Source: a virus
Strand: one strand, 5' to 3'
DNA length: 39,281 nucleotides
IMG/VR virus record: IMGVR_UViG_3300035698_002686
Span: 1-39,281 of that record
Position numbers and translations under genes: made by a program. Shown one piece after another: positions 14,671-39,267 of this stretch. The notes beneath the pieces were generated by a model that saw only the letters and a list, made by a program, of their open reading frames with translations, was not told the origin of the DNA and did no database searches. How positions within the stretch are numbered: the stretch's first letter is position 1; each line of letters begins with the position of its first letter.

Positions 14671-14679
14671 GGGTCGCTC

Positions 14680-18151: not shown

Positions 18152-19570
18152 CTAGAGGGACTGCCCGCAGTTCTTCCAGGCCCACAGCTTGCTCGGAGCC
18201 TTCAGCATGAGGCCGAGCACCGAAACCACCATGAACCGCTGGGCGGTACCGAGACGCGCCAGTTCGATGCGCGCGGCCTTCACGCCGAGTCGCACGGTCT
18301 GAAGGATCTCGGGGTCGTAGGACACGCCGAACGCCCAGCAGGTACCGGGAATGTCGGCGTTCTCATCGACGATCGTGGTCACGCCGCCGAAGGGGACCGA
18401 GACCATGAAGCGCGCGGTGCTCGCGGCGCCATTGTTGGAGCTGCGGTAGACCTTGTAGAACCACACGTCCGCGATGGCCGCGTCGTTCATCACCAGGGTG
18501 CATTTCTCGCCGGCCGCGATCGTCTGCTGCGCGCTGGTAAAGGAAGCGGAGATCCCGTTGGGGCCCCACGCCTCGACGACGTAGTAGTACTTGCCCGCGT
18601 CCGCGGCCTGGAAGAGGTTGTCCGCGCCGCCGGCTGCGACCGTGTCGCTGGTGAGCAACGGAGCCGCCGGGGCCGACGCGCCCACGGCGCCCACGGGGCC
18701 GCCGCGGTCGGACTGGAGGAAGTAGCTGGGCTCGTAGGGAACGAACTCGTCGTTCACCTGACTGATCTGTCCGGCCATCGGCATGCCGGACTTGCCGCGC
18801 TGGTTGCCGACTTCGTTCGGCCCGTACCGGCGCTTCGGGATCTCGAGCTGACCGAGGATGCGCTTGGACTTGTTGCTCATCCAGACGGCGTCGAGCATTC
18901 CGGCGCGGTCCATGACGTTCGCAACGCCTTCGTCGAGGCTGTCCTGCGTCAGCGACTCCCCGCGCATATCGGTGATCTGCGTCGGAGCGGCGGCGATCAT
19001 CTGCGTCGCGAGGCCGTCGATGGCGAGCGGGCACAGAGCCTCGGAGCCGAAGAAGAGATCCTCTTCGATCTTCGAGAGAAGGTTCAGGGACGCGGCCGTG
19101 GTGTTCGCTGCAAGCGCGTTCGCGCCGGCGCCCGGGAGAATCTTGACGATCCGCGCGACGTCGGTCACCTGATACAGCTCCACGGCGATCTTGAGCTTCG
19201 CGTACTCGCGGCTCCACGACGGGGCCGACTCCACGCTCGGGATGGCGCCTTCAGCGACCCACGCGAGCGTCGGAGTACCGTAGCTGGACTGACGGACGTA
19301 CTGGTGGACGGTGTTGTCCACGCCCATCTCCGCCAGCTTCTCCTGGAATCGGATATGGTTGCGCTTGAACAACAGGGACGTGATCGTCCCGTCGAGGGAC
19401 TCCGGCATGACCGGAGCCAGATTGCCCGGAGCGGCGGCCGGATACGGCTGGCCGGCGGTCAGGGACTTCGCCAACTCTTCCGGGTTGTCGATCCCCAGGA
19501 TGCTGGGGTCAAGTCCGGCGGCTTCGGGCTGCCCGCCGGCCTGCTGTGCGCTAAGCTGAAACAGACTCAT
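18152..19570 (-). CDS. Major capsid protein with Ig/FN3-like insertion
   Basis: A 472-aa protein with ATG 19570 and a strong SD (GGAGAGAAGG). It follows the protease/scaffold gene, as expected for the HK97-fold shell protein. Typical capsid features are YGTPTLAWVAEGAIPSVESA (about 97-116), the long helix region ILGQLEIPKRRYGP (about 238-251), and a C-terminal return to the core (GVKAARIELARLGTAQRFMVVSVLGLML). Between roughly 300 and 405 an extra beta-rich segment (KYYYVVEAWGPNGISASF, KCTLVMN, FYKVYRSSNN) looks like an Ig/fibronectin-type domain probably displayed on the capsomer surface. The first 50 residues are Gln/Ala/Pro-rich and could be removed by the prohead protease. No cleavage site is proven. 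Confidence 0.85.
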   Translation of the reverse strand: MSLFQLSAQQAGGQPEAAGLDPSILGIDNPEELAKSLTAGQPYPAAAPGNLAPVMPESLDGTITSLLFKRNHIRFQEKLAEMGVDNTVHQYVRQSSYGTPTLAWVAEGAIPSVESAPSWSREYAKLKIAVELYQVTDVARIVKILPGAGANALAANTTAASLNLLSKIEEDLFFGSEALCPLAIDGLATQMIAAAPTQITDMRGESLTQDSLDEGVANVMDRAGMLDAVWMSNKSKRILGQLEIPKRRYGPNEVGNQRGKSGMPMAGQISQVNDEFVPYEPSYFLQSDRGGPVGAVGASAPAAPLLTSDTVAAGGADNLFQAADAGKYYYVVEAWGPNGISASFTSAQQTIAAGEKCTLVMNDAAIADVWFYKVYRSSNNGAASTARFMVSVPFGGVTTIVDENADIPGTCWAFGVSYDPEILQTVRLGVKAARIELARLGTAQRFMVVSVLGLMLKAPSKLWAWKNCGQSL

Positions 19571-19606: not shown

Positions 19607-20290
19607 CTACTGCCCGTTGGCGTAGCTGCCGACGATGGCGGTGATTTCGGAAGCCTTGACCTGCTGCCCGGCCTGCATCGTGTCGATTCGCTGGAGGCTT
19701 TCACCGATCCGGTTGCAGGCCATATCGTCGCCGGCATGGCGGGCCGACTGCATCGAACGAGTCAGGGAGGCAACCGCGGCGCTCTTCGACAGGACGTCGC
19801 CGGTCCCCTCTGCGGGGTGCTCGAGCACGGCCGCGGCGTCGGAGCCGGTCACGCCGCGAGGGGCCACGGGGCGCCCCATGGCCTTCAGGAGCGTGGCGAC
19901 GTTCGCCTCAAGCTCCGGGGAGACCGCGGCGACCGGGGTCGCGATGGACCCTTCGATGCGCTCCATGCGCGTGTCCATGGCCTTGACGAGTTCGGTGAGC
20001 GCCACGAACACGTCGGCCTTGGCCTCATCGTTGGCCGCCAGCTCGCGAAGCGATGCGTTGGACTCCGCGATGCCGCGGCGCATGCCTTCGAGATCGCCGG
20101 GGAGGCGCTCGGGCGCAGAGCCAACCGACTTGGCGAGCACGTCAACCGAGCCCTCCATGACGCCCAGCGCCTTGCGCATATCACCGACCGCCTCGTTGGA
20201 GGTCGTGGACCCGCCCAGCTCACCGATAAGCTCGGCCTTCTGAGCGTCGGTCAGGGCCTTACCCTGCGTGACCAAGTCTGCGAAACTCAT
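19607..20290 (-). CDS. Probable nested scaffold protein (internal start)
   Basis: In the protease frame, ATG at 20290 (MSFADLVTQG, residue 252 of the long form) is preceded by GGAGGGAACG, one of the best SD matches in the window at ideal spacing. Translation from here gives a 227-aa helical protein equal to the scaffold half. The same arrangement is known from lambda, where Nu3 lies inside gene C. It would let the phage make many scaffold copies per protease. This is inferred from the SD and domain boundary. No second promoter is visible. Confidence 0.6.
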   Translation of the reverse strand: MSFADLVTQGKALTDAQKAELIGELGGSTTSNEAVGDMRKALGVMEGSVDVLAKSVGSAPERLPGDLEGMRRGIAESNASLRELAANDEAKADVFVALTELVKAMDTRMERIEGSIATPVAAVSPELEANVATLLKAMGRPVAPRGVTGSDAAAVLEHPAEGTGDVLSKSAAVASLTRSMQSARHAGDDMACNRIGESLQRIDTMQAGQQVKASEITAIVGSYANGQ

Positions 20291-21043
20291 CGTTCCCTCC
20301 GTTTTCGAGGCGCCGGCTTGGAGTTCGTCTTTGTCCTCCATGTCGGATTCGCCCTCAATGATTGATCCTTCTTCTTCGTCCGCATCGGTCCCGTCTTCGA
20401 GGTCTTCGTCGTCGTCAGCGTCCGGGTAGTCGTCTATGCCCTTCTTTAGCTTGGCTTTCGCAGCGGTGGCGCACTTGTCGAGGTCCGCCTGGACGCTGCC
20501 CATCGCCTTTTGGAACACCTCCGCCGTCGCCTCGAGGTTCATGGGCGCGGGGTCGAATGCGATGTTTCGGACGATGGCGCGGGCAATGTCTCGCTTGGTT
20601 TCGGGGTCTTTGTAGGCGAAAATGTAGCCCTCGACGCTCATCCCCATCGACCGATCGGCTTCCTGGAGCGCCTTCGCGAGCGCCTCTACTTCATAGGCGA
20701 CCGGCTGTTCAAGCCACTCGCCCTCGACGTAGGTGGCTTTGTTGCCGCGGGGAGTCTTCTTGCCGGTCTGTACCAGGGTAGGCTTGGCGACGTAGTCGAG
20801 GGGCTCGTCCCTGCCCTCATCGGGCTTCGGGGTGTGCTTCCAACGGAACAGGCCGTTATCTTTGAACCACGAGAAGTCGAGCCCGGATTGCTTGACGACT
20901 TGCCCCTCTTGGTCCCTCATCTCGGTCGAAGCGAAGCCGCGGAGCATGCGCCGCTTGGGCTTTTCGCCGGCTTTGACGAGTTCGTCCGCCTCGACTGCGA
21001 GCAGCTCGAATGGGAGCGTGAGGGCGAAGGGCGTTTCGGCCAT
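19607..21043 (-). CDS. Prohead protease fused to scaffold
   Basis: A 478-aa protein with ATG 21043 and a GGAGGATCT SD. Residues 30-170 match a prohead serine protease: RGFAST near 36, FRWKH with the candidate catalytic His70, and SMGMSVEGY with candidate Ser136 in the SVEG motif, followed by ARAIVRNIAFDPAPMN. Residues 200-240 are extremely acidic (DDDEDLEDGTDADEEE). From residue 252 the chain is helical and Glu/Ala-rich without cysteines apart from one near the end, as expected of a scaffold. The protease matures the head by cutting scaffold and itself. An internal SD and ATG at residue 252 suggest that the scaffold is also made separately. Confidence 0.8.
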   Translation of the reverse strand: MAETPFALTLPFELLAVEADELVKAGEKPKRRMLRGFASTEMRDQEGQVVKQSGLDFSWFKDNGLFRWKHTPKPDEGRDEPLDYVAKPTLVQTGKKTPRGNKATYVEGEWLEQPVAYEVEALAKALQEADRSMGMSVEGYIFAYKDPETKRDIARAIVRNIAFDPAPMNLEATAEVFQKAMGSVQADLDKCATAAKAKLKKGIDDYPDADDDEDLEDGTDADEEEGSIIEGESDMEDKDELQAGASKTEGTMSFADLVTQGKALTDAQKAELIGELGGSTTSNEAVGDMRKALGVMEGSVDVLAKSVGSAPERLPGDLEGMRRGIAESNASLRELAANDEAKADVFVALTELVKAMDTRMERIEGSIATPVAAVSPELEANVATLLKAMGRPVAPRGVTGSDAAAVLEHPAEGTGDVLSKSAAVASLTRSMQSARHAGDDMACNRIGESLQRIDTMQAGQQVKASEITAIVGSYANGQ

Positions 21044-21161: not shown

Positions 21162-22142
21162 TCAGGACTGATCACCGGGCGGCTGTTCCAGGGAGGCTTC
21201 GTCCGCGGTCTCTTCGGACTGCGAAACCATCTCGGCGGGTAGCAGGCTCCATTCATCGTTGAAGGCGAATCCGGCGGGCACCCATCGCGTGCGGCAGTGA
21301 CAGTTGGGGTGGACCGTGCTCCACGTCGCTATCCAGTCGCGCCGCTTGCGCCCGACGTTGTCGCCCTTTGCTAGAAGTTCGGACAGCACCCAGATCCGGG
21401 GCTTCCCCTCCGGGTCCAGGAACAATCGCAGGCAGTCGGGGCAAGCGCCCGGGTTCGGCACCCTGGCTACCAGCGAGTCCGCTCCGTGTGTCTCGTACAG
21501 CCGGTGAACAGTGCCGGCGTTGTGTGCTTGCTGAAGCTCGGTACGGGCGACCCGGTCCCAGTCGCGGGCGTGGTCTCCGAGGTTGCGCGCGATGTCCTCT
21601 GCAAGTTGACGGGACGTCTTACGCTCCTCAATGGCCCGAATCGTGCGGTCGCTAATGAACTCTTGCAAGGTCTGGTCGCGAGCGGCGCGCGAGCCCGAGT
21701 CCATGAGCCCGGCCGCAATCTTCTGCCCGCCGCCCTGGACGTGCTGCGCAGTCCGGTGTCGCGCCCATACCGAAGCGCCCCGCTCCGCCTCGGTCATCGG
21801 GATCGGGTCTCTGGCGATGCGAGCGCGCAAGGCGTCGTAGGACAGGGCGTCCACGTCTTCTGGCAGCCACCCGCGGGCCACCTTGGCGGCGGCTTCCTGG
21901 ACGTGCAGGCGCAGGAGCGATAGCGCCACGGCGTCGCCCATGGCATCGGCGCTGGCTAGGGCGTCGAGCGCCGTCGCGGAGTCCAGGATCCCGGCGTCCA
22001 CAAGGCGCTGAATCTCGGTCGCGGCGGCACCGGTCGCAGGAATCCCGACCGTCTCTACCGCGAACGCAAGGTGGTAGTCCGCGATAAGGCCGTACAGAGC
22101 TTGGAGCATCTCGGGGGTGAGCGGCGTCACTTGCTTCTCCAC
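21162..22142 (-). CDS. Mu gpF-like minor head protein
   Basis: A 326-aa protein, most likely starting with GTG at 22142 (no strong SD). The central region (about 165-215) has TIRAIEERKTSRQLAEDIAR and WDRVARTELQQAHNAG, the helical pattern of phage head-morphogenesis proteins. The C-terminal part carries C234-P-D-C237 and H278-P-N-C-H-C283 (TVHPNCHCRTRW), the hallmark metal-binding motif of the family. These proteins bind the portal and are packaged in low copy number inside the head. The gene follows portal and precedes protease, the canonical order. The C-terminal 35 residues are acidic. No toxin or ADP-ribosyltransferase domain is fused. Confidence 0.85.
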   Translation of the reverse strand: MEKQVTPLTPEMLQALYGLIADYHLAFAVETVGIPATGAAATEIQRLVDAGILDSATALDALASADAMGDAVALSLLRLHVQEAAAKVARGWLPEDVDALSYDALRARIARDPIPMTEAERGASVWARHRTAQHVQGGGQKIAAGLMDSGSRAARDQTLQEFISDRTIRAIEERKTSRQLAEDIARNLGDHARDWDRVARTELQQAHNAGTVHRLYETHGADSLVARVPNPGACPDCLRLFLDPEGKPRIWVLSELLAKGDNVGRKRRDWIATWSTVHPNCHCRTRWVPAGFAFNDEWSLLPAEMVSQSEETADEASLEQPPGDQS

Positions 22143-22175: not shown

Positions 22176-22373
22176 CTACACAGTAGCGCTACCGGCGTCA
22201 GGTCGATCAAGAGGTTCCGCCGGGGCGGGCAAGCCAAGCTCGCGATGTAGTCGCGCCTGAAGTCGCGCGAGCATGGCGCGGTACGCAACGGACAGTCGCG
22301 CATTCGACTCCGCTAGTGACCGCGCTTCCCATTCGGCCGGCTCATCGTGGCTAGTCGTCTTCGGGCTTGCCAT
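22176..22373 (-). CDS. Small helical protein of unknown function, 65 aa
   Basis: The start is placed at ATG 22373 because TGAGGTG lies upstream at good spacing. An ATG four codons earlier has no SD. The first 23 nt overlap the end of the portal gene in another frame. The product is mostly one long amphipathic helix (EWEARSLAESNARLSVAYRAMLARLQARLHREL) followed by a Pro-rich tail. There is no cysteine, membrane segment or known motif. Position between portal and minor head protein suggests a small head-assembly factor. It could also be a non-functional overlap ORF. Confidence 0.45.
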   Translation of the reverse strand: MASPKTTSHDEPAEWEARSLAESNARLSVAYRAMLARLQARLHRELGLPAPAEPLDRPDAGSATV

Positions 22374-24159
22374 GGCGCACCTCATAGACGGTCAATGGGC
22401 GCCCGACAACCGAGATCGGCCGGGGCGCTCCGGGTTGCCAGGACGGTATCGGGGCGCCCTTCTCGGCTTCGTCCGGCGGCTCGAGCCCCGGGAAGTCGTC
22501 GCCCTCTTCCTCCGGGAACGCCTCATCGGGCCCCACGAGGCCCGGGAAGTCGTCTTCGCCTTCGGGCAACGGTTCGCCCTCTTCACCCTCCCCGGGCATT
22601 CCGGGCATATCCGGGGGCTGTTCGGCGGCGTGCTTCGCTTGTAGCCACACCTGATTCAGGATCACGTCGCCGTCCTCGCGAGGCGGCATATCCTCTTCCT
22701 CGCGGGCCTCATTGACCGTCATGTAGGTGTTGATCCGCTTGATCCGGCTTTCGAGTCGGGCGGCTTCGTCCTCGGGATTCAGGTTGAACTTGAACTCAAA
22801 GTCTTCGTCGATCTGCCAAGTGATGTAGCGATTGAGGTTCTCGGAGATGAAAACGAGCAACGGGTAGAGCCCGCGGTCCTGCGACAGAAGGATGCGCGCC
22901 TCGGGGCCTTGCTGCGTCAGCGCCCCGGTGACGCCCTCTGCGCCGAAGATCAGATTGAGTTGCGCCGGGTCCATGAGGATGACCGCGCAGTACAGCTTGA
23001 CCAGGGTGCCGAACCACTGGTGGAACTCTTCGTCCTTGTTCGATTTCTTGAAGTCCTCGAAATTGGTCTTCGCGTTCGGATCGTCGAGTAGCAGGTAGCT
23101 CATCCGATGGGCATTCGCCACGCCGGTCATCGACGCTTTGAAGTCTTCGACCCACGACTTGAACATGCCCTCGCTCATCTGGCCTGAGACCGTGAGCATG
23201 CCGGCGGCCTGCAAGCCTTGCTTGAACTTCGCGAAGTTGTATTCCATCGACCATGAGATCCCGGTGATCAGGCTCATGGTCTCCTCGAACTCAGGCCATC
23301 CGTACCCGTAGGACTCCAGGTCGGTGCGCTGGCGACGAATGCCCCACATGAGGTACTCGCCGGGCCACTCCGCGATCCTCCGTTGCTGGTAAACCTGCAC
23401 GAAGTTTGTCGCCTCGCGATCGGGGCGCTGGTCTCCGTGTTCGTCGAGGTGCCACTTCGTCGGAATGGCACGCCGGATCGTGTGCGAAGGAAGGGCCCTG
23501 AATGCCGCCGGACGGCCAAGCCGGTCCGGGATGATCTCGGTACAGGACTGGTCGAAGGTCATGGAGTCGCGCACGAATTGCTTTACCCAAGTCGTGAAGC
23601 CTGCGTGCTGCCACATTTCGTTCGCGTCCCAGACCCCGCAGTTCTGGAAAAACCGCTGCATCTCTTCGATCTTCTTTTTGGCGGCAGGGGACGGGGACTT
23701 CTTACTCTCGCGGAGCTGCACGCGGCAACCGGCCATCTCCGGGTGCGGCTCGAACCGGCAGAACCGCGCCGCCTCATTTGAACGGATCTGAATCGCAGCG
23801 GCGGAGATATGCCAGCGGGCAACAAGGCGCAGAAGGTCGTAGGACAGGCGATTCAGAGGCCCGGGGGTGGACATTGACGCAGGGTCCGCGTGGATCAGGA
23901 GTTGGGGGTCGAATGTGTAGGGCTCGGGACGTCCGCCCACCCCGGGCGGAAGGGGCACCCCTGCCGCCTTGTTCACGTCCGGCTTCGCCGGTCCGCCCTT
24001 CTCGAGCGCGTCGAAGTAGGAGCCCATGACGCGCGACGTGATGATGCCGGCGCCCCCGCCCACGGTGCTCGCAGCGGTCTCTACGCCGCTCACGACGCGC
24101 TTCACGGTCCGGGCCGCTGTTCTGCCTACGCGCCCTGTCAGGTCGTCTACAATCCCCAC
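22351..24159 (-). CDS. Portal protein
   Basis: A 602-aa protein starting with GTG 24159 behind GGAGGCAGAC. The portal is the 12-fold ring through which DNA is packaged and ejected. Supporting patterns are LVARWHISAAAIQIRSNEAA near the N-terminal third, the clip and stem region with NFAKFKQGLQAAGMLTV and FKASMTGVANAHRM, GTLVKLYCAVILMDPAQL, and the late NTYMTVNEAREEEDMPP segment typical of portals before the C-terminal tail. From about residue 520 the tail is acidic and Pro-rich with two DDFPGL-x-x-PDEA units. The next genes (minor head protein, protease, capsid) confirm the role. No terminase genes lie directly upstream, which is unusual. Confidence 0.85.
   Translation of the reverse strand: MGIVDDLTGRVGRTAARTVKRVVSGVETAASTVGGGAGIITSRVMGSYFDALEKGGPAKPDVNKAAGVPLPPGVGGRPEPYTFDPQLLIHADPASMSTPGPLNRLSYDLLRLVARWHISAAAIQIRSNEAARFCRFEPHPEMAGCRVQLRESKKSPSPAAKKKIEEMQRFFQNCGVWDANEMWQHAGFTTWVKQFVRDSMTFDQSCTEIIPDRLGRPAAFRALPSHTIRRAIPTKWHLDEHGDQRPDREATNFVQVYQQRRIAEWPGEYLMWGIRRQRTDLESYGYGWPEFEETMSLITGISWSMEYNFAKFKQGLQAAGMLTVSGQMSEGMFKSWVEDFKASMTGVANAHRMSYLLLDDPNAKTNFEDFKKSNKDEEFHQWFGTLVKLYCAVILMDPAQLNLIFGAEGVTGALTQQGPEARILLSQDRGLYPLLVFISENLNRYITWQIDEDFEFKFNLNPEDEAARLESRIKRINTYMTVNEAREEEDMPPREDGDVILNQVWLQAKHAAEQPPDMPGMPGEGEEGEPLPEGEDDFPGLVGPDEAFPEEEGDDFPGLEPPDEAEKGAPIPSWQPGAPRPISVVGRPLTVYEVRHGKPEDD
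22462..22554 (-). repeat. Two acidic repeat units in the portal C-terminal tail
   Basis: Positions 22520-22554 and 22462-22500 encode DDFPGLVGPDEA and DDFPGLEPPDEA, with similar DNA, separated by an acidic spacer. The units lie outside the portal core and could be a short binding motif for scaffold, protease or packaging partners. Confidence 0.75.
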
Positions 24160-24667: not shown

Positions 24668-25009
24668 CTATGGCTCGATGTCATGGTCTAGGATTGAGAC
24701 CACGCGGTCTCCGAGCAGGTCCGTCCGCAGATCGCCGCCGGCCGCGAACCGTCCATGCTGGTGAGCCAGCGCGGCCGTGATAACCTCTGCGCTTCCTAGC
24801 TCCGCCCCCACGGCGTCGAAGTCCGGGTCTTCGTCGATGTAGGGCCCGAAGGCCAACCCATCGCCTTGCTTGAACCCTGCGTCACGGAACAGCGCCTTGA
24901 TCGGCCACCACCATACACCGAAGTAGCGGTAGAAGAATGGATCGCTTTGCAGCAGGAGCGCGGCCTGTTGCAGCCGCGGATCAAGTAGTTCATACGCCGT
25001 AACGGCCAT
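24668..25009 (-). CDS. Unknown protein, 113 aa
   Basis: ATG 25009 has a strong SD (AGGAGGCCAC) that includes the stop codon of the giant upstream gene, so the two are translationally coupled. The N-terminal third is hydrophobic and aromatic (AALLLQSDPFFYRYFGVWWWPIKALF) and the C-terminal part is acidic (GPYIDEDPDFDAVG). The WWW patch and preceding helix are not long enough for a convincing membrane span. No family recognised. Both neighbours are virion-related, so a structural or assembly role is plausible. Confidence 0.6.
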   Translation of the reverse strand: MAVTAYELLDPRLQQAALLLQSDPFFYRYFGVWWWPIKALFRDAGFKQGDGLAFGPYIDEDPDFDAVGAELGSAEVITAALAHQHGRFAAGGDLRTDLLGDRVVSILDHDIEP

Positions 25010-31000: not shown

Positions 31001-32845
31001 CGGCGCCTTCGACTTCTCCGGGGACACCTTTGGACTCGCCTTCGCGTCAGGCGGCGCCTGGGGCTCTGGCGGTACCGCGCGAGTGACCGCCTTGCCTTCG
31101 GGAGCGTTGCGGCCGACCGGGCTCAGCTTTCGCAGAGCTGCCCCCAGCGCGACCTTGACGATCTTGCCGAGACTCTTGCGGCCCTTCACGTCCTCTGCGT
31201 CCGTGGCTGCATTCTTCTCCGCCGGGGTCGGCTTTTTGAGCGTGGGGACGGCCGGTGTGCCCGTCTTGAGCGCGCGGGCCTCGCGGCGCTTCGCGGCCTT
31301 CTCCGCCTTGCGCGCAGTAGCCATCATATCGTTGATCTTGGTCTCGGTCTCCAAGTCCAGAACCCGCTCGAACACGTTGGGCGCCACTTCCAGCGCCTTC
31401 GGCTCCGCGGGCTCCGCCCCCGCCGGGGTCGGCTCGCGGTCCTCGACGTGGGGCGCGGGCGGGGTAGCCAGCGCTGCCAGGATCGGCCCATGGTCTCCGC
31501 CCCACTGCGCTGCGGGGATCTCCCCGAACCCGTAGGACAACACATTGTCGAGCATCATCCGGGCGAATCCGGGGTCCGGCTTGGTCGAAGTGTGGGGCCC
31601 GTAGGGTCCGCCGGCCGTGGTCTGGTCAAGGATAAGCTGGCCTTCAGCGGTGATCTTGAAAATCACCTCAGAATCTACGACCAAGTCTCCGTTCATCTCG
31701 CGGTAGTGGGTGAGCATGAGCAGGGGCCCGTGGCGCTCAATCGTCAGAGGTAGGAAGGGCTCGTTGTAGAGCTTCAGGTAGAACGATGAGCCCACCGACA
31801 GGGCCTTCGGCGGGAGACCTAGCTGGTTGAACAGGCGGGTGACGGCCTTTGCTCCGGCCCCGGATTGCTTCGACGTGGGCAGGAGCGCGGTCCCGCGCAT
31901 GTTCTCCAGGCTCCCCATATCCATGAGCCTCCGGGTCTGCGTCTCGTTCATCTCGTAGAGGCTGATCGGACGGCTCCCGGGACTGGGGAACGTGATCGTC
32001 TCCGCCTTGCGGTCCCAGATTCCCTCTGGCGCACACTTCGCAGCAAAGTAGCGCCACGCCGCCGAGATCCGCGACGCGAGGCCGGTCCACTCGGGCATGA
32101 CGATCCCGCTGCCCTTGGAAGCCTCGCCGGCCTTGCGGGCGGCTTCCTCGCGCTGGCGCTGTTCGGCGTCGGTGAGCGGCCGGTCGGTGGCGGTCGCGGT
32201 GTCCTGCTCAGGCTTCACCTCTGCGGGCTCGGCCACCTTGGCCGCGCCGATCTGCTCGCGGACCGCCTCGAGGCGGTCTCCGAGGGCGGACAGTTCCGCC
32301 GTCTTCGTCTCCCATTCGGACGTGTTGTCGGGATCGTTGTGCGAAAGCCAGTCCAGGGCCGCCATGATCTCGCGGCGCCGGTTCTCCAACTGCGCCAGCG
32401 TCGGCAAGCGGGCCGTCTGGTGGGCCGCGGAAGGCTCCCGCTTCTTTTTGCCGGCCTTCCCTGCCTCATCGGTCGAAGCGCTTGCGGGGGCCTTGCCGGC
32501 GTCCTCATCGGCCTTCGGCGTGCTCGCCAGCGCCGTCGCGATCTGTTCGAGCTTGCGCTTGGCGATGTCAACGAAGTGCTCGAACGCGGACCGGGTCTGC
32601 GTGCGGCGCTTCCCGAGCGACGCTTCAGACACCACTCCCTTGCGGCGGGCCTTCAGGTCCTCTGCGTAGGTGTAGGCCCACCTCATCTTGCCGGCGATCA
32701 TGCGCTTGACGCGCCGAATGTACTTGTGTGCGCGGAAGCCGCCGCCGTCACCGAGGGCCTTTGTCAGCTCGTCCGGCTCACCGAGGTACACGTCGCCGTA
32801 GTCCTCATGGGCCCGAAGTACGCGCAGGAGAATGTCGTCTCGCAT
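25019..32845 (-). CDS. Giant N6-adenine methyltransferase-SNF2 helicase (DarB-like)
   Basis: A 2608-aa protein with ATG 32845 and an AGAGG SD. Domains in order: an N-terminal part with HKYIRR (40-45) and GK-x-RW; Lys/Ala/Pro linkers to about 240 and again at about 480-650; GYSGWGG near 730, typical of this methylase-helicase family; methyltransferase motif I VLEPGCGSGSF (765-775) and catalytic NPPY (843-846); a middle region; and an SF2/SNF2 helicase with Walker A DVGLGKT (Lys1579), DEAH (1812-1815), TATP near 1870, GEGINLQ near 2150 and QREGRGVRQ near 2170. All key motifs are intact. P1 DarB has the same plan and is carried in the virion to protect incoming DNA from type I restriction. Delivery from the head is inferred here from its place next to head genes. 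Confidence 0.87.
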   Translation of the reverse strand: MRDDILLRVLRAHEDYGDVYLGEPDELTKALGDGGGFRAHKYIRRVKRMIAGKMRWAYTYAEDLKARRKGVVSEASLGKRRTQTRSAFEHFVDIAKRKLEQIATALASTPKADEDAGKAPASASTDEAGKAGKKKREPSAAHQTARLPTLAQLENRRREIMAALDWLSHNDPDNTSEWETKTAELSALGDRLEAVREQIGAAKVAEPAEVKPEQDTATATDRPLTDAEQRQREEAARKAGEASKGSGIVMPEWTGLASRISAAWRYFAAKCAPEGIWDRKAETITFPSPGSRPISLYEMNETQTRRLMDMGSLENMRGTALLPTSKQSGAGAKAVTRLFNQLGLPPKALSVGSSFYLKLYNEPFLPLTIERHGPLLMLTHYREMNGDLVVDSEVIFKITAEGQLILDQTTAGGPYGPHTSTKPDPGFARMMLDNVLSYGFGEIPAAQWGGDHGPILAALATPPAPHVEDREPTPAGAEPAEPKALEVAPNVFERVLDLETETKINDMMATARKAEKAAKRREARALKTGTPAVPTLKKPTPAEKNAATDAEDVKGRKSLGKIVKVALGAALRKLSPVGRNAPEGKAVTRAVPPEPQAPPDAKASPKVSPEKSKAPRPRKTGDVPVPEPAHGSTRTEGGRMYAWDHASLAWVRVEPIDRGQAHALLLQRLAGTIKAVKNAPQFGGRKGWGMVNREKGNLTATAMARHLIEAGRAPTAGEREILRGYSGWGGASGTGSLTEYYTPPTVVAAMWEALKDLGLRPGHRVLEPGCGSGSFIEQAPEGVRCIGVELGQMALTERPAGELDPAVEIAKVLHEPNGHEIWQSDISDFALTDGREFDFIVGNPPYGKRVNAKASGDKSDTVSLERYSMEMGLDKLADNGYVAMLMPASSMGVSVSGFGAGEGPGAIREWRKRLLTKGQLVAAYRLPTEVFKQGGCAMGADIMIFRAHPRELRERLQGATTTQLTEMGLYDDEFVAGHYFSGRGAANMLGEFSRPPTFDERLAQLEGALKVAETDDERERIAASIANVKVYTEGGKGGNLTGLKQSSSTLCKGDPDAPFGMTPETLATLLDPATRDPQTFADGDVIKKLASGREQLDRITAANKKPYAISKPGDTRHDPATGTKYVLMPDGMWLSRDKLPEVHNLDSEGTSAAVEDAEKIAAVSAALNLAMLEGDRIAALEQQQKLGPMVRQYLEDHGNPHRIKGVKALRKAKGDAERRTFLHMMMLFGKDGSFSEILTREPNAAERSKREIADASSLSSVTEYLADTSRDIRVSDILEKWTGGTGDDEHRGAEVRQWLVASTDYFPEPYPPGAWSHRADFLSGNLIGKAEDLKRARAGMPNQELAAQYDAAIAVLEANTHEMNFDQIRIDMRADWMPDEVLTGYFQHVVRGMGYGENVAAKITIVNDGTITDIHGLDRQNRSEITHQNYEILWTLLRHLNRVPLGSEGQKELMSMHRDHFKDWLAGQDDLRQLVEQTYSSIYGAWTPVAYSNEDPVPKGRNNQTLDEAIVTLEGKIAAQSDPQKKAKLERRLKGTRKRAATEGGKAVNLKLYPFQASSANRAIAEGRGLIALDVGLGKTPIGVTIAAHLAAMGNERTMLPVPKQTLSNWYEEFKVWAPGVDVLMIGLKWDAKKIDKKTGKPGAWVEESADEKAKKLMEVQAGLHQVILCTHDLTNAIRLSENADKRLTQDEILTRRKGAIEELKEKHAKSGSKEDDGVKVTEGDWLRFNATLAGPAPVSEEEAESLLASLEIIAARLSQGDTKKDARRLKAIEEIIRNETARADKLSYGEESEATRGIDWDSLGIRNMIVDEAHAYKNLYTAVDPDQPGSVANMGGRAESIRARQMEKKCRFMREQRGDEKGVFYMTATPCKNSPMELYNLFAQTDPALLRTLGIETPFAFVNRYCQIEDRQGLSLAGEVEMKPTLVGFQNLDELRILMGRAMDRKTASEVGLEVPTVSRVTHEIAMDDDQQAATTAIREYVDTLKHMSRQEAKAQDINVIAELGRCLSKMEGVAMDMDLLAERKGKVENVGEDADENPLTNLPIPKDHWKRSPKYRALAKAASEVYKAGVDVDGTNIKTGQIIFAERTTSHQRIKQHLIEQGIPEDQIAIINAKVTPSSADRQAIADAFRAGDIRIVIGNTATAGEGINLQDWCSDIHHLDQRWEPGSMHQREGRGVRQGNQIGHVRIHDYFAERSAEGIRAQNVRGKATWQEALFSGSEMVDFGDPGMEMEEMLAYFAEDPEAARAALGVAKRAFAKREIEQQQDVADDLWSRVQKSRALIRRTAPSSNAHKSAVQRVEVDERRLARLEHWKHKDLLAVKEPMLWDHDSGVFVREGTMFEVTGSGYYKDPKKVVVDYVEAEQNRATVHFLGSPNHTMTLTLENLRDGSIIVPNEYRPKDTQKYEIHALTLGAASAPYDGKAEIESLLGKPGEDKWWHGALSDLRFVPDAQIAAASDAIQDWEERERRKASVYGERTWVVTNGGKTRVVNSRTELQPNERHVLPTAADRELVFKALQEKVYERSQEAQSGGRDPDSAVRASGKDDPDTRKLLDTLKSYWGETRSAANVYQKWQTEVPHPAEKAFGHPVSLRLALAAAGTRRAAARR
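31201..31260 (-). other. Degenerate copy of the TAADRM-type motif in the methylase-helicase
   Basis: The linker before the methyltransferase contains PTPAEKNAATDAED, close to the TAAEKM-x-AA elements of the adjacent 2137-aa protein but with Pro and Asn substitutions. It is the only such match I found in this gene. Confidence 0.45.
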
Positions 32846-32853
32846 GGTTGCCT

Positions 32854-35800
32854 CTACAGCGTGGGTTCTGAATCCCTGTAGTATTCGCTCTTCGCGGTGT
32901 TCGATTCGCGGTATTCCGGATCGTGGTACCAGTCAACGAACGACGCTTCATTCTTCCAGCGCGGGATCTCCGGCTGCGAGTCGTCTACCAGCTGCGCGAA
33001 GCCCTTGTCGGCCTTGATCTTGGCGATCCAATGGTCGCGGTCCCCGATCTCGTCATGCAGGTCGGGGTGCTTGTCCGCAAGCACCGTTGCCATCTTCTTT
33101 GCCGCGGTCGCGTTTCGGAATCTGACGGGCGCCATATCTCCGTTCGGGCCATAGACGCGCCGATCCTCCGAAACCACGAAACCCTTGCGCTGCATGCCGC
33201 GGACGTTCTTTCGGTCGGTCCCATCACTCACGGACGCCCAGGCTTTCTTGCTCCACGTCTTTCGGGCCGGGTCGGCCGGCGGGGCGTGCTTGCCGATCTG
33301 CTCTGCCCCGTCCGCCGCTACCTTCGATTCCTCGCCATGATTCTGCGTTGCGTCGAGGGTCTTCGCGGCGCTCGCGTTGGGGGCGTGCTGCTCCATATAC
33401 TCCGCGCGCTTCGTAGCGTCGGACAGGGTGAATGCCGGCGAGCCCAGCGTTAGACCGCTTCCCGCGTGAACCACGCTCCACCGGCCGTCGTCTTCGATCT
33501 TCTCGACGATGTAGTTCCCTTTTCTGTGGCCTTCGTACTCCTGATCCCATCCGACCCCGTTGTCTGCCTTCGTGATCTGGTGCGTAGCCTTCTCGCCCCA
33601 CCCTTCAGGGACGGGCTCGGCGCCGGTCTTCGCAGCGGCCTTCTCGCCAGCCGCTTTCATCTTTGCAGCGGCCCCCTCGACGTTGGCCGCCTGCACCACG
33701 CCCTCTGCCTCTGCAATGGCCGCGTCGCGGTCCGCCGCCGGCATGCCAGGGCCACCGGCCGATAGCTTCGCGGCAATCGCTCGTAGCTTCTCCGCTACCG
33801 CTGGCGCGTAGGTCTTCCCCTTCTTGCCCTTGCCGGGCTTGGCGACCATGGCGGCCATCTTCTCCACGCGAGCGACCGCGCGACCGTGGGCGGCGGCGCC
33901 CTTGTCCGTGGTCACGTCTGCGGTGGCATCCTTGACGACGGTGCGCGCCGCGGGCTCAGCCTCTTCGTCGTCATCGTCGAAGGTCGGCATCTTCCCGCCG
34001 AACGCTGCGAACTCCGCGGCCAGCGGGTCCACCTTCGGGGCTTGCTTCGGTGCGGCGACTGCGGCGGCCTTCATGCGATCCGCGGCGGTGCCCTTGCGGG
34101 TGGCGGGGCCGCCACCCGCCCCGTCAGGGGCAGGGGCGGGTGTGGGGGTGGGCTTTGTAGCGGGGGGTGTGCCCAGGAGAGCGGTCACGGCCTCTTTCGT
34201 CAGCGTCTTCGGGCGCTCATCCTGCATGAACTTCGCAGCGCCCTTGTCGCGCAAGGCTCGCGCGCTGTCGGTCAGGAACCTCTCGTCGCCTGTCGATTCG
34301 TAGGTTCGTAGGTTCGAGGCTGCTGCGTTCACCCTCCCTTGCAGCGCCCGCAGGGCCGCCCTGTCGGTCTCGCTGGCGCCTTCCATGGCGGCGGTCATCG
34401 CCACCACGGTGCGGTCCCCCTGCGTGGACGGGTGGTCCGCTCCGAACCTGCCCGCCTTCGCCGCTTGCTTGCCGGCGGCGTACTCGTCGGACGCGGCCCT
34501 CTTGGCCTCCGGGTCTTCCGGCTCTAGGTGCCCCTTCACCCGTGCCTTGGCTTCTGCCAGCGTCTCGCCTTCGAGGATGGGGCCCATGGAGGTGTTGCGT
34601 GAGTCTGCCTCGCTCAGCTTTTCGATGTATCTCTCGGCTGCCGCCTTCGTCCTGTGCTTCCTGACGGTGGCCTTGCCGCCCTCTCCGACCGACGCCGTTA
34701 CGTACTCGGGTTCGCCGCCACCCGCCGCCGCCTTCATCTTCTGCGCAGCGGTCCTATCATCCTTCGCCGCCACGTTCGGATCGGGGTTCTCTGGCGGTTC
34801 GATGCCAGCGGCCCAGTAGACGGCTTTCGCTTGAGCATCGGTGAGCTTGTTCGCCTTGACGGCCTTCTCTACTGCAACCGTGGTGACTTGCGCCGGGGAG
34901 TGCTCCGGCTTCGCTCCGGCCGCGACGGCGTCGTCTTCGTGCCCGTGCATCGCCACGGACTGGCTCAGGTACCCGTCACGCGCATCGACGCCGGCCTCGC
35001 TGATCGCGGACGCGGCTTCCCGCGCTGCCTGAGCGTTCGGGCCAATGCGGAACTTCTCTGCGTACTTCGCCAGTCCGGTCGCGTGCTCGCGCAGCTTGTC
35101 CGCGTACCGCCCGCCCCGCTCCATATGCGTATCGTGGGCGTTCTCCGACTCCGCAAGGGCGTCCTCAATCCCATCCTTGCGATACTTCCCGGGCGCCATG
35201 AAGTCGCTATCCAAGACTGCGCTATCGTGCAGTTCAATCGCCAGATTGGCGCGGTCTTCGTGCGGCGTGTTCCCGCCCGTGTGAAGCGAAGAATCCCGCC
35301 ACGAAAGGTCGTCGAGCGGGTCTTTCGCTGCATTGGCGGATTTGCCTTCCTCGACGATCATGTCGTGCTCCGAAGGCGTCACGATTGTGTCGTGAGACTC
35401 CGCCTCCGGGCCCGCCGTCCTGATCTCGGATTCCAGACTCTCGACGTGCTCATTCAGCGCGTCCGTGTACGCCTTCTCTTTTTCGTCCGCGTCCGCGCCA
35501 TAGAAGCCGTGATACCCTTCGTTCGCTTCAGCGGCGGCCTTGATCTTCAGCGCGTGAGCCATCTCCGACGCGAGGGTATGGTGCGCGGTCGTGAACGCTT
35601 CCGATTGCTTCGATCCGCCGCCGGGCGTTCGGTGGGCGCCCGCTTCGTGCAGCCTGCGGATCTGGCCTTGAATGTCCGTGATTTTCCCCAGGGCCTCATC
35701 AGCCAGGGCTCCGCGGTCCGTGTCCCTCAAGAACCGCTCATGCGCTCGCCATTGCGCGAGGCGCTGATTGAGCATGTTGACGCCCTCGCGACCCGTGACT

Positions 35801-38800
35801 ACCTGCCCGGTCGCCCGGTCTATCGCGGTCACGGGCCCGCCGTCCCGACGCGGCTTTGTGGCGCCGAAAATGTCCCCGGTCCTACTGACGCGCTTCGCCT
35901 GTTCCTTGGCGCCGCTGGCGGCTCCTCGGAGCTTCGCGGCGGCCTTACTCTCGGCCTTCATCTTCTCCGCCACTACGGCGGTGGCGGCGGTGGCCTTCTC
36001 CTGCCCGGCGGCTTTCTTCCCCCAGTTACCGGCCAGCGCCCGGTCGGCGTCGGCCATTTTCTTGACATTTGCGATTGCCTTTTTGCTCACCGGCCGCGGG
36101 AACCCGGTGGACTCCCCGCTGGTGAGTTGGGCGTCACCGTCCGACAACTGGCCCGCAAGGGCCGCCCATCGATCCATGGCGGCTGCGCTTCGCTCCCAAT
36201 CCTTCGCCGCTTGGCGGAGCGTCGCCGTGCCAGCGGCGTCCCCAGCATTCCGCACCTTCTGCTGTGCGTCGGTGTCTGGGCGAGCCGACAGGAATTCCGC
36301 ATCGACGGCCTTCCATTCCTTCAGCTTCGCAGCTCGCGAGGCGCCCGCGTCGGCCCCGAGCGCCGTGTCGGCCGCGGCGCCCATCTTCTCCGCCGCCGTG
36401 GGCTTGGGCGTCTTCAGGGCGGCAATGCGACCGGCGAGCGCCACGGTATGCTCCGCATGAGCCCTCCGGGCCTTGTCGGCCTTCGCCTTGTCCGCGTCCG
36501 ACCAGTCCAGGGGGAGCATGACAAGGCTGTCCGATATGGCCTTGTGGCGCTTCATCGCATCGCGAATGTCGCCTTCCGTCTTGTAGCTCTCCGGCGGCTT
36601 CATTTCCGGGGCGTACTGAAGCGTATCGTCCACGGTGTACGAGTCGTCGGCCGCTTTCTTGTCGGGCTCGTACCCCCACGCCGTAGCCATCTCGACGCCC
36701 TTCGGCGTCAGTCGGTAGTCTTGCGTTCCGGCCTTCCGGTCCGCGCCTGTGCGCTCCGCGAGCCCGGCGGCGACAAGGGCTTTCGCGGCTTTCTTCTCTC
36801 CTGCGGAAGATACGCCGGACGATGCCCCTGGCCCGTCCTCGCTGCGCCGATTCGATAGAATTGCCAGCAACGTACTCGCCATGCCGGTAGGCTTGGCCGG
36901 GCCGTCCGCGGCGGTCATCTTGTCGGCAGCGGTCGGCTTCGGCGCCGCGTCGGGAGTGCGGATCTCCGCCTCTAACGCTTCGGACATAGACCGCACGGCA
37001 TTGTTCACGCCCGAGGTCAGTTGTTTGCGTTTCTCCCGGAGCGCTTCATTCCTCTTGTCGCGCTCCGCCTCGTTGCTCATATCCGGGTTGTAGTAGCTGG
37101 ATTCCGCCGTTATCCGCTCGACAGCGCCTTGCAGGGCCGCACGGACAACCTTGCGGGCCTCTGCCGCGCTTCGGGGCGGTCTGATACTTCCGATCAGCGC
37201 TCCGCCGGACGTGTAGCTTGGCGTGTCTCCGTCCCACACCTCTCCGCGGGCCGTCCGGGGCTTGCCCGAGACGATCCCCCACTTGCCCGCAGAATTCGCC
37301 ACGCCGCTGCCGAAATCCTTGAGAGCAGCGCGCGCCAGTGGAGCCGCGACGAACCCGTCAAACTTCACGAGATGGCCGACCCCGGCCGCTTCGGCGGCCT
37401 CCGAAACCGAGCGGGCCACAGACTGGGCCTTCGGGGCTTCTGGCTTCGGAGTCTCGCCCTCTGCGCCCTTGCCAGTTGGCGCGGGCTCGCGTGCCTTGTC
37501 TATCTCCGCATTGACGCGCTGCCAGAGGCGGGTGAGCCCGAGCGACGTCTTCGACGAGTAGCCCGCCTCTTCCGTTTCTCCGCGCCGCTTGTGCTCTGTG
37601 GAATTCTCGTCTTCTCCGTTGGACTCTTGCGTCAGGAAGTCCGCCCACCGCTGCATATCCTTGGGGTCGGACGGGAGTGTCAGCACGCCCTTGCCGGCCG
37701 CTGCGGCAATCTCCCGGGCCGTGTCGCCCTCTGGACTGTCGTCCTCGAGGTACTTATCCGCGAGAGTATCCTTGATCCACCCGCCCCCGAATCCGCCCAT
37801 GCGAATCTTCGGCCCCTTGCCGGCCTCGCCGCCCTTCACGCCCGTTGTCCGGGCCGGCGGCTCCGTCTGCGGCGCGGCCTTCATGCGATCCGCGGCGGTG
37901 CCCTTGCGGGCCGCTGCGACCGATTCGTGTAGGTAGGCGTCGTGCAGCTTGTCAACGATCCCCAGAACCGTCTTGCGGTCGTATTCCCGCTCGACGGCGC
38001 CCGCCAGCTTCGCAGCGTCGGCCCACTCGCCATCCTTCAGCGCTTGCACCAGGGCCTTGGCATCGGCCGCAGGGATGCCCCCGCGGCGCTCCAAGCCTTT
38101 GATGCTCTGCTCGGCCCCCGCGAGTGTCACTTCGCCGGCCGTCTTCTCAGGCGCCCCGTAGACCCGCTCATGGTCCGCAAGATCCTTTAGGCGCCCGGCC
38201 TTCTGTTTCGTGGACCCGTGCTTCTGCGAAGCGTCCACCTCACCGCGCAGCCGGCGGTGGCGGGCCGTGAGGCTATCGCGCTGCTCGTAGTGCATGAGCG
38301 TGCGCAGGTTCGCTTCGGTCATATTGATGATGTTGCCGGACTCATCGTGCTTGACCGTGATCATGCCCTTGTCGGCATCGACCTTGGATATGTGGTAGTG
38401 CCCGCCGTGCGCCTTGAACGAGGATCCGACCTTCAGGTGCTCTGAGTGAACGATCCCGTGCTTCGTGCCCGGTACGGAGTACCAGTAGCGGTAGCTCTGT
38501 TTGCCGCGCGCGTTCGTGTAGGGCGTGCGTTTGATGTACTTGTGGCTCGCGCCCTTCACGAGTCGGAGATCCTCGTCTACCTCGATTGCGATGAGCACGG
38601 CGCCGTCCGGGATCTCGCCCAGCGCGAGGGCGTCTCGGTTGACCATGGCCTTTGCCATGTTCATGCGCCCGACCATGGCCGCGGCTTGGTTCCCGCCGAT
38701 GGGTTCCGGTATCCGCCAACTCTTCGCCGCTTCGTCCGGCCCCTTCTTGGCCCTCGCAGGCGGCTTCCAGGGCTCGCTTGGATCCTTCGTGATCCGGCCC

Positions 38801-39267
38801 CGGAGTACCGGCGGCGGACCGCCGAAGTCAAACGTGTGGCCCTGTACCTTGTCTGTCCCGTAGGCTTCCGCGAATTTGCCGAACTGCCGCTGCCCCATAT
38901 CGAACATCGTAGACAGGCGGGTGTCGTACTCCGATTCTTCGATGGTCACTCTGAGCCCGCCGTCCTCGAACCCAATGTCGTGGACCGAACCGCCGAGCAT
39001 GCCGAGCGTGAACTTCGGCGTCAGCCCGGACACTTCCTGCGAGGCATTCAACAGGGCCTCGCGCATCGGGGGTGTTAGTGGCGCCTCGCGGATCGCTTGC
39101 TCCAACTCGCCCTTGATCTCCGCGACCCGGGCCTTGTCGCCGGCAATCTGCGCTGTCTGGATTGCTTCCAGCTTCGGGATACTGTTGGGGACCAGCCTGA
39201 ATAGCTGCGGTAGCTTGTCCTGTGCGTACAGGCTCAGGTTGTCCGCAACGCGGACCGCGGACGTCAT
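32854..39267 (-). CDS. Giant modular protein of unknown function, 2137 aa
   Basis: ATG 39267 follows AGAAGGA at suitable spacing. The frame remains open for the few codons to the window edge, so a longer upstream start cannot be excluded. The protein is rich in Lys, Ala, Glu and Asp with no membrane segment. Visible parts: an N-terminal region to about 235; HKYIKR (from 242) followed by NARGKQSYRYWYS; a small beta-rich element (HYHISKVDADKGMITVKHDE) near 285-305; a winged-helix-like stretch near 800-865 (KALVAAGLAERTG, YRLTPKGVEMATAWGY); long charged helices; and C-terminal small domains near 1880-1950. About seven TAA[DEQ][KR]M-type elements separate the segments. No enzyme is recognised. 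Its position next to a DarB-like gene and the head module suggests an internal, possibly ejected or processed, virion protein. Confidence 0.72.
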   Translation of the reverse strand: MTSAVRVADNLSLYAQDKLPQLFRLVPNSIPKLEAIQTAQIAGDKARVAEIKGELEQAIREAPLTPPMREALLNASQEVSGLTPKFTLGMLGGSVHDIGFEDGGLRVTIEESEYDTRLSTMFDMGQRQFGKFAEAYGTDKVQGHTFDFGGPPPVLRGRITKDPSEPWKPPARAKKGPDEAAKSWRIPEPIGGNQAAAMVGRMNMAKAMVNRDALALGEIPDGAVLIAIEVDEDLRLVKGASHKYIKRTPYTNARGKQSYRYWYSVPGTKHGIVHSEHLKVGSSFKAHGGHYHISKVDADKGMITVKHDESGNIINMTEANLRTLMHYEQRDSLTARHRRLRGEVDASQKHGSTKQKAGRLKDLADHERVYGAPEKTAGEVTLAGAEQSIKGLERRGGIPAADAKALVQALKDGEWADAAKLAGAVEREYDRKTVLGIVDKLHDAYLHESVAAARKGTAADRMKAAPQTEPPARTTGVKGGEAGKGPKIRMGGFGGGWIKDTLADKYLEDDSPEGDTAREIAAAAGKGVLTLPSDPKDMQRWADFLTQESNGEDENSTEHKRRGETEEAGYSSKTSLGLTRLWQRVNAEIDKAREPAPTGKGAEGETPKPEAPKAQSVARSVSEAAEAAGVGHLVKFDGFVAAPLARAALKDFGSGVANSAGKWGIVSGKPRTARGEVWDGDTPSYTSGGALIGSIRPPRSAAEARKVVRAALQGAVERITAESSYYNPDMSNEAERDKRNEALREKRKQLTSGVNNAVRSMSEALEAEIRTPDAAPKPTAADKMTAADGPAKPTGMASTLLAILSNRRSEDGPGASSGVSSAGEKKAAKALVAAGLAERTGADRKAGTQDYRLTPKGVEMATAWGYEPDKKAADDSYTVDDTLQYAPEMKPPESYKTEGDIRDAMKRHKAISDSLVMLPLDWSDADKAKADKARRAHAEHTVALAGRIAALKTPKPTAAEKMGAAADTALGADAGASRAAKLKEWKAVDAEFLSARPDTDAQQKVRNAGDAAGTATLRQAAKDWERSAAAMDRWAALAGQLSDGDAQLTSGESTGFPRPVSKKAIANVKKMADADRALAGNWGKKAAGQEKATAATAVVAEKMKAESKAAAKLRGAASGAKEQAKRVSRTGDIFGATKPRRDGGPVTAIDRATGQVVTGREGVNMLNQRLAQWRAHERFLRDTDRGALADEALGKITDIQGQIRRLHEAGAHRTPGGGSKQSEAFTTAHHTLASEMAHALKIKAAAEANEGYHGFYGADADEKEKAYTDALNEHVESLESEIRTAGPEAESHDTIVTPSEHDMIVEEGKSANAAKDPLDDLSWRDSSLHTGGNTPHEDRANLAIELHDSAVLDSDFMAPGKYRKDGIEDALAESENAHDTHMERGGRYADKLREHATGLAKYAEKFRIGPNAQAAREAASAISEAGVDARDGYLSQSVAMHGHEDDAVAAGAKPEHSPAQVTTVAVEKAVKANKLTDAQAKAVYWAAGIEPPENPDPNVAAKDDRTAAQKMKAAAGGGEPEYVTASVGEGGKATVRKHRTKAAAERYIEKLSEADSRNTSMGPILEGETLAEAKARVKGHLEPEDPEAKRAASDEYAAGKQAAKAGRFGADHPSTQGDRTVVAMTAAMEGASETDRAALRALQGRVNAAASNLRTYESTGDERFLTDSARALRDKGAAKFMQDERPKTLTKEAVTALLGTPPATKPTPTPAPAPDGAGGGPATRKGTAADRMKAAAVAAPKQAPKVDPLAAEFAAFGGKMPTFDDDDEEAEPAARTVVKDATADVTTDKGAAAHGRAVARVEKMAAMVAKPGKGKKGKTYAPAVAEKLRAIAAKLSAGGPGMPAADRDAAIAEAEGVVQAANVEGAAAKMKAAGEKAAAKTGAEPVPEGWGEKATHQITKADNGVGWDQEYEGHRKGNYIVEKIEDDGRWSVVHAGSGLTLGSPAFTLSDATKRAEYMEQHAPNASAAKTLDATQNHGEESKVAADGAEQIGKHAPPADPARKTWSKKAWASVSDGTDRKNVRGMQRKGFVVSEDRRVYGPNGDMAPVRFRNATAAKKMATVLADKHPDLHDEIGDRDHWIAKIKADKGFAQLVDDSQPEIPRWKNEASFVDWYHDPEYRESNTAKSEYYRDSEPTL
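34064..34100 (-). repeat. 37-bp exact repeat encoding RKGTAADRMKAA (copy 2)
   Basis: Identical to 37874-37910. Related but diverged elements lie at about 36905-36950, 36370-36415, 35945-35985, 34725-34765 and 33640-33680. Confidence 0.93.
37874..37910 (-). repeat. 37-bp exact repeat encoding RKGTAADRMKAA (copy 1)
   Basis: Identical to 34064-34100, in the same frame, about 1270 residues apart in the 2137-aa protein. Flanking bases differ at once on both sides. Confidence 0.93.

Follow-up and report, generated by a model that had tools for sequence, protein, structure and literature searches.

TAA[DEQ][KR]MxAA as a candidate module joint in a giant phage protein encoded with head genes

A short peptide motif, TAA[DEQ][KR]MxAA (TAADRM for short), recurs in a giant protein encoded by a virus contig with a length of 39,281 bp and a GC content of 65% (IMG/VR record IMGVR_UViG_3300035698_002686); this whole stretch of DNA is called the window here. 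Our reading, to which we give roughly even odds (about 0.5), is that the giant is modular head cargo of the polyvalent type and that the motif is a lineage-specific joint between its modules, copied and kept at the protein level, which would also act in docking. Polyvalent proteins have been described as very long proteins of mixed modules that are encoded with packaging genes, include DarB and DdrB types and are predicted to be packaged, and their mosaicism is already part of that description (Iyer et al. 2017, PMC5512222). The available text of that article describes no recurring motif between modules, and none of the terms linker, short motif, shuffl and disordered appears in it. The peptide strings of TAADRM and of NFETMPE, a motif of related phages discussed below, led to no paper in the open-licence literature, nor did terms combining polyvalent protein, linker and repeated motif. 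By what means phages select and package proteins of such length is to a large extent an open question, and few targeting signals are known (P1 DarB, T4 internal proteins).

The giant protein and its motif copies

A sequence-only reading of the window had given the protein 2137 amino acids (aa), a size that reflects the end of the contig. The open reading frame (ORF) begins 14 bases inside the end of the window, where it is cut, and on a second contig, L002 (IMGVR_UViG_3300025669_000073), which differs from the window by 2 mismatches in 15,425 bases, the frame extends upstream to give 2585 aa from an ATG taken as the start, or 2607 aa from a GTG. The window ORF lacks the N-terminal part of the giant, so adding 448 converts 2137-aa numbering to 2585-aa numbering. 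Searches of the giant against Pfam, PHROGs and NCBIfam recovered no family at threshold, and a sequence search of the PDB was likewise fruitless. In 50,697 phage records, tblastn gave no result for the 2137-aa ORF, the N-terminal 468 aa, the terminase-like protein encoded upstream or a module from one relative, and single-protein searches of viral and genome contigs returned the near-identical contig alone or nothing. By eye, H, HD, HH and D in the giant's N-terminal region (L002:8690-9030) are spaced as in HD hydrolases, with no Pfam match, and a stretch at 36685-36792 is winged-helix-like, with a match to EarA that is below threshold (E 0.094).

Five exact copies of the motif occur in the 2137-aa ORF, at aa 457, 779, 957, 1506 and 1727 (Table 1). 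The sequence-only reading had counted about seven; the five exact copies and one good degenerate copy at aa 1865 stand, while the copy at aa 1098 is doubtful. In 2000 residue shuffles of the ORF, matches at all nine class positions averaged 0.0 against the five seen; matches at seven or more of the nine averaged 0.146 and never exceeded 3, against eight seen. Shuffling in 30-aa blocks (200 shuffles) left on average 0.015 matches of at least 15 bits and never more than 1, compared with six in the real sequence. An unbiased score of 9-mer recurrence, which presupposes no motif, found six copies in the giant versus two to four in 60 block shuffles. Three further candidates were rejected. What had been taken for a degenerate copy in the 2608-aa neighbour, TPAEKNAAT at 4.6 bits, does not stand out from chance, with 20 matches of at least 4 bits in the phage's other proteins against a shuffled mean of 10.9 and maximum of 24; SAKERMHGAA at the N-terminus of a 168-aa protein is also within chance; and VSDRLRKAA near the giant's N-terminus, motif-like by eye, was not accepted as a copy.

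The DNA under the copies points to two kinds of history. Copies 1 and 5 are covered by a 37-bp exact direct repeat, which is the giant gene's sole exact DNA repeat of at least 18 nucleotides (nt). With this pair left out, residue pairs between motif copies are identical in 61 of 81 cases, compared with 11/81 and 10/81 in the two flanks, which have no similarity beyond chance. Synonymous codons agree in 27 of 52 cases between the copies, where random expectation is 21.5 with a 95% range of 14-31. Since the residues are kept while synonymous codon agreement stays within the random range, the motif is conserved at the protein level. The copies look old and held at the protein level, plus one recent copying at the DNA level.

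Relatives and a second recurring motif

A search with an alignment of three capsids gave 80 viral loci, including two that are this phage or its near-identical contig. Seven loci encode large proteins with an N-terminal module similar to aa 684-800 of the giant (E<=7e-5, best 3e-10), and in an eighth, L161, the match has an E value of 0.016; a search with this module led to 67 loci. A fold search with a model of the module (mean predicted local distance difference test score, pLDDT, 62.6) returned 477 matches at E<=10 and 0 at 0.001, with weak SH3/Tudor-like resemblance only. Two capsid relatives, L128 and L131, encode giants with a ddrB-ParB domain, and that of L131 also has a C5-methylase.

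When the 42 giants that reach 900 aa at the module loci were scanned for recurrence, three attained five copies of some sequence, and in the giant of L251 the repeated sequence is NFETMPE. DNA encoding NFETMP[DE] was then counted in viral contigs: 61 stretches on 54 contigs, 23 of which have two or more matches, versus 13 stretches with one match apiece for a scrambled control. The giants concerned lie on L251, L278-L336, L143, L161, L236 and L237, with one to five copies each. Altogether there are 89 distinct copies in 54 non-redundant ORFs, of which 39 are at least 800 aa long and 26 have two or more copies; a few single matches in short ORFs are chance-like (e.g. L280, L301, L321). The NFETMPE core is invariant by construction of the search, and a preceding D or N (86%) is free of such bias. 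Flanks of this motif have fewer bulky residues and more proline than random positions in the same proteins. A Pfam scan of 20 of the 54 ORFs found 12 families, among them ddrB-ParB in three giants, SNF2 in two, and ART-PolyVal, LPD1 and LPD25 in one each. With a stretch around NFETMPE as query, tblastn against phage records and plasmids gave 1 and 2 records, respectively, at E 7 or worse.

Two modules shared by the giants of L251 and L289 stand in reversed order: residues 439-805 of L251 correspond to 873-1232 of L289, and 793-1107 to 569-881. Six of the eight edges of these modules lie within ~17 aa of an NFETMPE copy. Comparison of all pairs for shared blocks (at least 50% identity over at least 80 aa) yielded 108 distinct internal block ends, which were set against a null of 5000 draws. 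Ends within 20 aa of NFETMPE numbered 26 versus 7.9 expected (null maximum 18), and those within 30 aa numbered 29 versus 11.7 (null maximum 23). Counted from the motif, 28 of 49 internal copies have a block end no more than 20 aa away. When the two sides were split, ends within 30 aa came to 23/74, above the null maximum of 20. In five closer relatives, 20 of 44 block ends lie within 15 aa of a Pro/Glu-rich linker, where 10 were expected. The relatives show that a recurring motif can sit near the borders of exchangeable blocks.

Several results weigh against our reading. High recurrence alone is not unique to it, because in the same 9-mer scan of 66 other giant ORFs two reach 9 (the others at most 5). 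The sequence-only reading had proposed a search for the motif in homologues as a check and had counted its absence there as evidence against the idea; the exact sequence is missing from all 1629 six-frame ORFs of 300 aa or more at loci L122-L349 (own contigs excluded), and among 66 ORFs with the module the motif score never exceeded 11.6 bits. NFETMPE and TAADRM are not similar in sequence; the analogy between the two is one of placement alone. In the block analysis, ends within 10 aa of NFETMPE (12 versus 4.1 expected) are within the null (maximum 13), as are block starts taken alone within 30 aa (13/46, maximum 14); 82 of the 108 ends are more than 20 aa from any copy, and in the five closer relatives the median distance from end to linker is larger than random (p 0.995). 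NFETMPE codons are shared within one protein in 265 of 338 cases versus 171.7 expected, which fits simple DNA copying. The claim that the copies in the giant are regularly placed goes too far: neighbouring copies are 138-408 aa apart when seven are counted and 178-549 aa apart for the five exact ones. Around the seven copies, disorder-prone sequence is weakly enriched (p 0.016-0.039), and the bulky-residue test on the flanks of the five exact copies gives 0.17. Copies 1-3 lie almost wholly in stretches with pLDDT below 50 in a single-sequence model of aa 800-1560, a low-confidence model (mean 51.8) that served for disorder only, and with 413 of its 761 residues below 50 this placement is little above chance.

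TAADRM does not behave as a widespread phage motif; among at least 119 stretches listed, more than one exact copy was found on this phage's contig only. Three other ORFs (L009, L031, L092) have two matches of at least 11 bits each, with one exact copy or none. Because it was not seen in the ORFs of homologues, or elsewhere more than once per contig, the exact motif is, as far as searched, apparently lineage-specific.

Joint, docking helix or cleavage site

Because its gene is located in a head-gene cluster with antirestriction genes of the DarB-like and Ulx-like types, the giant is most likely polyvalent-type cargo of the virion, and it would be loaded into the phage head together with these two proteins. 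The TAADRM motif may form a short capped helix in or beside a linker, with a T-x-x-D/E cap, as the helix-cap rule has it, and a face of Ala and Met; the Q copy, TAAQKMKAA, does not fit this cap. The joint would have been copied from junction to junction, once recently as the 37-bp repeat, with the older copies kept at the protein level, and modules would be exchangeable at joints as they are in relatives with NFETMPE. From the capped-helix pattern and the repetition we infer that the joint most likely has a second role as the point where the long chain of the cargo docks with a partner, either in the prohead or on another cargo protein. Head loading, docking and any partner are all inferred steps of this proposal.

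Cleavage is the role that the sequence-only reading had put beside head targeting and docking. If the motif were cut by the head protease or another protease, the giant would be a polyprotein of internal head proteins. A head protease gene does lie in the same cluster, the motif of the relatives lies near module edges, and proteolytic processing has been reported for P1 DarA and DdrB (PMC5512222, PMC12810830). The propeptide of SPN3US gp53 is reportedly cut at several repeats of one motif (PMC10052503), and in having several copies of one motif the giant resembles that internal head protein. However, SPN3US cuts are described as following AXE, with Glu at P1 and Ala at P3 (PMC10052503), and the acidic position across the five exact TAADRM copies reads D, D, E, Q, D, with E in one of five; [AS]xE, for its part, is found 38 times in the giant. 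A look through the phage's other virion proteins, another check that had been suggested, gave nothing above chance in any of its other proteins, and the motif is absent from the capsid, the protease and other expected substrates, unlike the sites of SPN3US. In the relatives, NFETMP occurs in 0 of 81 head homologues (capsid 0/18, protease 0/23, minor-head 0/24, portal 0/16), and no peptidase is among the 12 Pfam families of the 20 scanned giants. Because of the single AXE and the count of 0/81, cleavage by the head protease is less likely, and a different protease is possible; overall we consider a cleavage site unlikely and favour a lineage-specific joint and docking helix over it.

A pure recombination joint would need no molecular partner at all. 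The motif would then be a linker cassette copied as DNA, a patch of homology for module shuffling, and this explanation draws on the 37-bp repeat, on the exact 18-25 nt repeats that five of eight relatives carry (for the most part at Pro/Glu-rich linkers), on the enrichment of block ends near NFETMPE and on the codon sharing among NFETMPE copies. It accounts less readily for the other TAADRM copies, which keep their residues though their synonymous codons agree within the random range, or for NFETMPE on 54 contigs in proteins with unlike flanks and varied codons, and we hold it to be possible but doubtful. An ordinary Ala-rich helical linker, or the remnant of a repeated domain edge, with no special function is far less plausible still. 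The giant is 17% Ala (371/2137) and one degenerate copy lies in a long helix, but shuffles that keep composition, local ones too, do not yield the motif, and its flanks are no more alike than chance allows. A docking joint remains the reading we prefer.

The leader element, gene neighbourhood and side observations

The homologous module opens with a leader element of consensus xxLxKAAGHKYIKRIP....YRYIY. A leave-own-out profile, built without this phage's two giant copies, gave two leader matches in the giant, with E values of 3.9e-12 and 1.6e-4, and returned 101 domains at E<=0.05 in 24,678 ORFs and 0 in reversed ORFs. The element is present in the giant, its DarB-like neighbour and 74 other ORFs, and is repeated inside some long proteins. 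With an earlier profile of 54 sequences, which included the two giant copies, it lies at most 90 aa from the upstream stop in 53 of 76 non-redundant ORFs, with more than one copy in 6 ORFs, and 13 of 62 loci have two or more leader ORFs, sometimes as neighbouring genes; these loci were largely chosen by the leader itself, so the counts are not a rate and it is the placement that is informative. The leader is present in 10 of 78 capsid relatives, and in 0 of 118 TAADRM-pattern loci (1.04 Mb) and 0 of 13 scrambled-control loci. Among the NFETMPE loci it was found in 31 of 60, five of which were already known module loci, with 30 ORFs having both elements; for newly found loci the count is 26/59, or 21/54 after removal of five on contigs used for the profile. 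Two metagenome-assembled genomes of bacteria (Myxococcales and Deltaproteobacteria records), confirmed out of 14 pattern matches, encode leader proteins that adjoin a portal homologue or lie ~5 kb from it. As side observations, gene 5 of Thermus phage Lalka27b (L209:8738-10021), near a DarB-like gene, has a marginal N-terminal leader match (E 0.003), and the L128 and L131 giants have, by eye and pattern, several leader-resembling GGYRRR...WxYWYP stretches, the first near the N-terminus.

P1 DarB has an N-terminal capsid targeting sequence (PMC9024508). All copies of TAADRM are internal, and the leader is near the N-terminus in both giants, the 2585-aa protein and the DarB-like one. In line with P1 DarB, the leader is the better candidate for head loading, ahead of TAADRM. 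A tentative generalisation is a two-part cargo grammar in a large group of tailed phages, in which the N-terminal leader would load the protein, a joint tag (NFETMPE or TAADRM) would be read by one phage partner and modules would be freely reordered; such a grammar, if true, would be an exchangeable payload system. A shared leader and recurring joint tags, if borne out, would provide concrete, testable signals and help to explain the reshuffling of polyvalent modules, and they could be used in the laboratory as tags that direct proteins of choice into phage heads.

Downstream of the giant gene the order is DarB-like, Ulx-like, a 168-aa ORF, portal, minor-head-like, head protease and major capsid, and a terminase-like gene, assigned by reading its sequence with no Pfam match, lies upstream. 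Like polyvalent proteins, the giant is encoded alongside packaging genes of the phage, since its cluster holds those for portal, head protease and capsid; unlike them, it has no catalogued domain at threshold. One of its modules has homologues in relatives. The cluster resembles that of P1 Dar in that the gene for a DarB-like methylase-helicase adjoins an Ulx-like gene near portal and protease genes, and DarB adjoins Ulx in P1 and in Lalka27b as well. In contrast, P1 Dar proteins reportedly share no N-terminal consensus (PMC9024508), whereas the giant and the DarB-like protein share the leader. A further difference from P1 Dar is that no PHROG named DarA, Hdf, DdrA or DdrB is among the matches of the 22 window ORFs compared with PHROGs, on a contig that is incomplete and where unnamed PHROGs could hide them. 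Gene context, then, supports that part of the sequence-only reading which had proposed an internal head protein, in the form of Dar-like cargo, and its prohead-protease version is unsupported; a docking or targeting helix is possible.

Table 1. Features of the giant gene and its surroundings; positions are in the window unless prefixed L002
Feature	Position	Strand	Basis or remark
2137-aa ORF, 3' part of the 2585-aa giant; frame continues beyond window end	32854..39267	-	L002 frame
Module aa 684-800, homologous to N-terminal module of related phages' large proteins	38212..38562	-	sequence matches
Motif copy 1, TAADRMKAA (aa 905 of 2585)	37873..37899	-	
Motif copy 2, TAADKMTAA (aa 1227 of 2585)	36907..36933	-	
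Motif copy 3, TAAEKMGAA (aa 1405 of 2585)	36373..36399	-	
Doubtful degenerate copy, VVAEKMKAE (aa 1546 of 2585; 1098 of 2137)	35950..35976	-	10.3 bits; within long predicted helix
Motif copy 4, TAAQKMKAA (aa 1954 of 2585)	34726..34752	-	
Motif copy 5, TAADRMKAA (aa 2175 of 2585)	34063..34089	-	
Good degenerate copy, GAAAKMKAA (aa 2313 of 2585; 1865 of 2137)	33649..33675	-	15.3 bits
Exact direct repeat of 37 bp, first copy (a), covering motif copy 1	37874..37910	-	
Exact direct repeat of 37 bp, second copy (b), covering motif copy 5	34064..34100	-	
Internal leader copy, HKYIKR...YRYWY (aa 683-714 of giant)	38470..38565	-	leave-own-out hidden Markov model (HMM), E 3.9e-12
Leader near N-terminus of DarB-like protein	32654..32731	-	leave-own-out HMM, E 0.0004
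Leader element on L002	L002:7750-7827		
DarB-like protein, N6-methylase and SNF2 helicase, 2608 aa	25019..32845	-	
Ulx-like antirestriction protein	24668..25009	-	phrog_1629, E 3.4e-08
Portal protein	22351..24159	-	
Minor head protein, SPP1 gp7-like	21162..22142	-	score below family cut-off
Head maturation protease	19607..21043	-	phrog_1028, E 1.3e-18
Major capsid protein	18152..19570	-	

Two minor observations concern other proteins. The C-termini of the L143, L145 and L161 proteins end in a pattern that, by eye, we take to resemble that of a DNA sliding clamp. In the window, adjacent ORFs of 170 and 166 aa at 14158-15180, downstream of the capsid gene and a 943-aa ORF, have near-identical starts (MDNPRLQHKRDRRSASIGVA and MDNARLQHKRDRQSASLGVA) and are an apparent tandem duplication.

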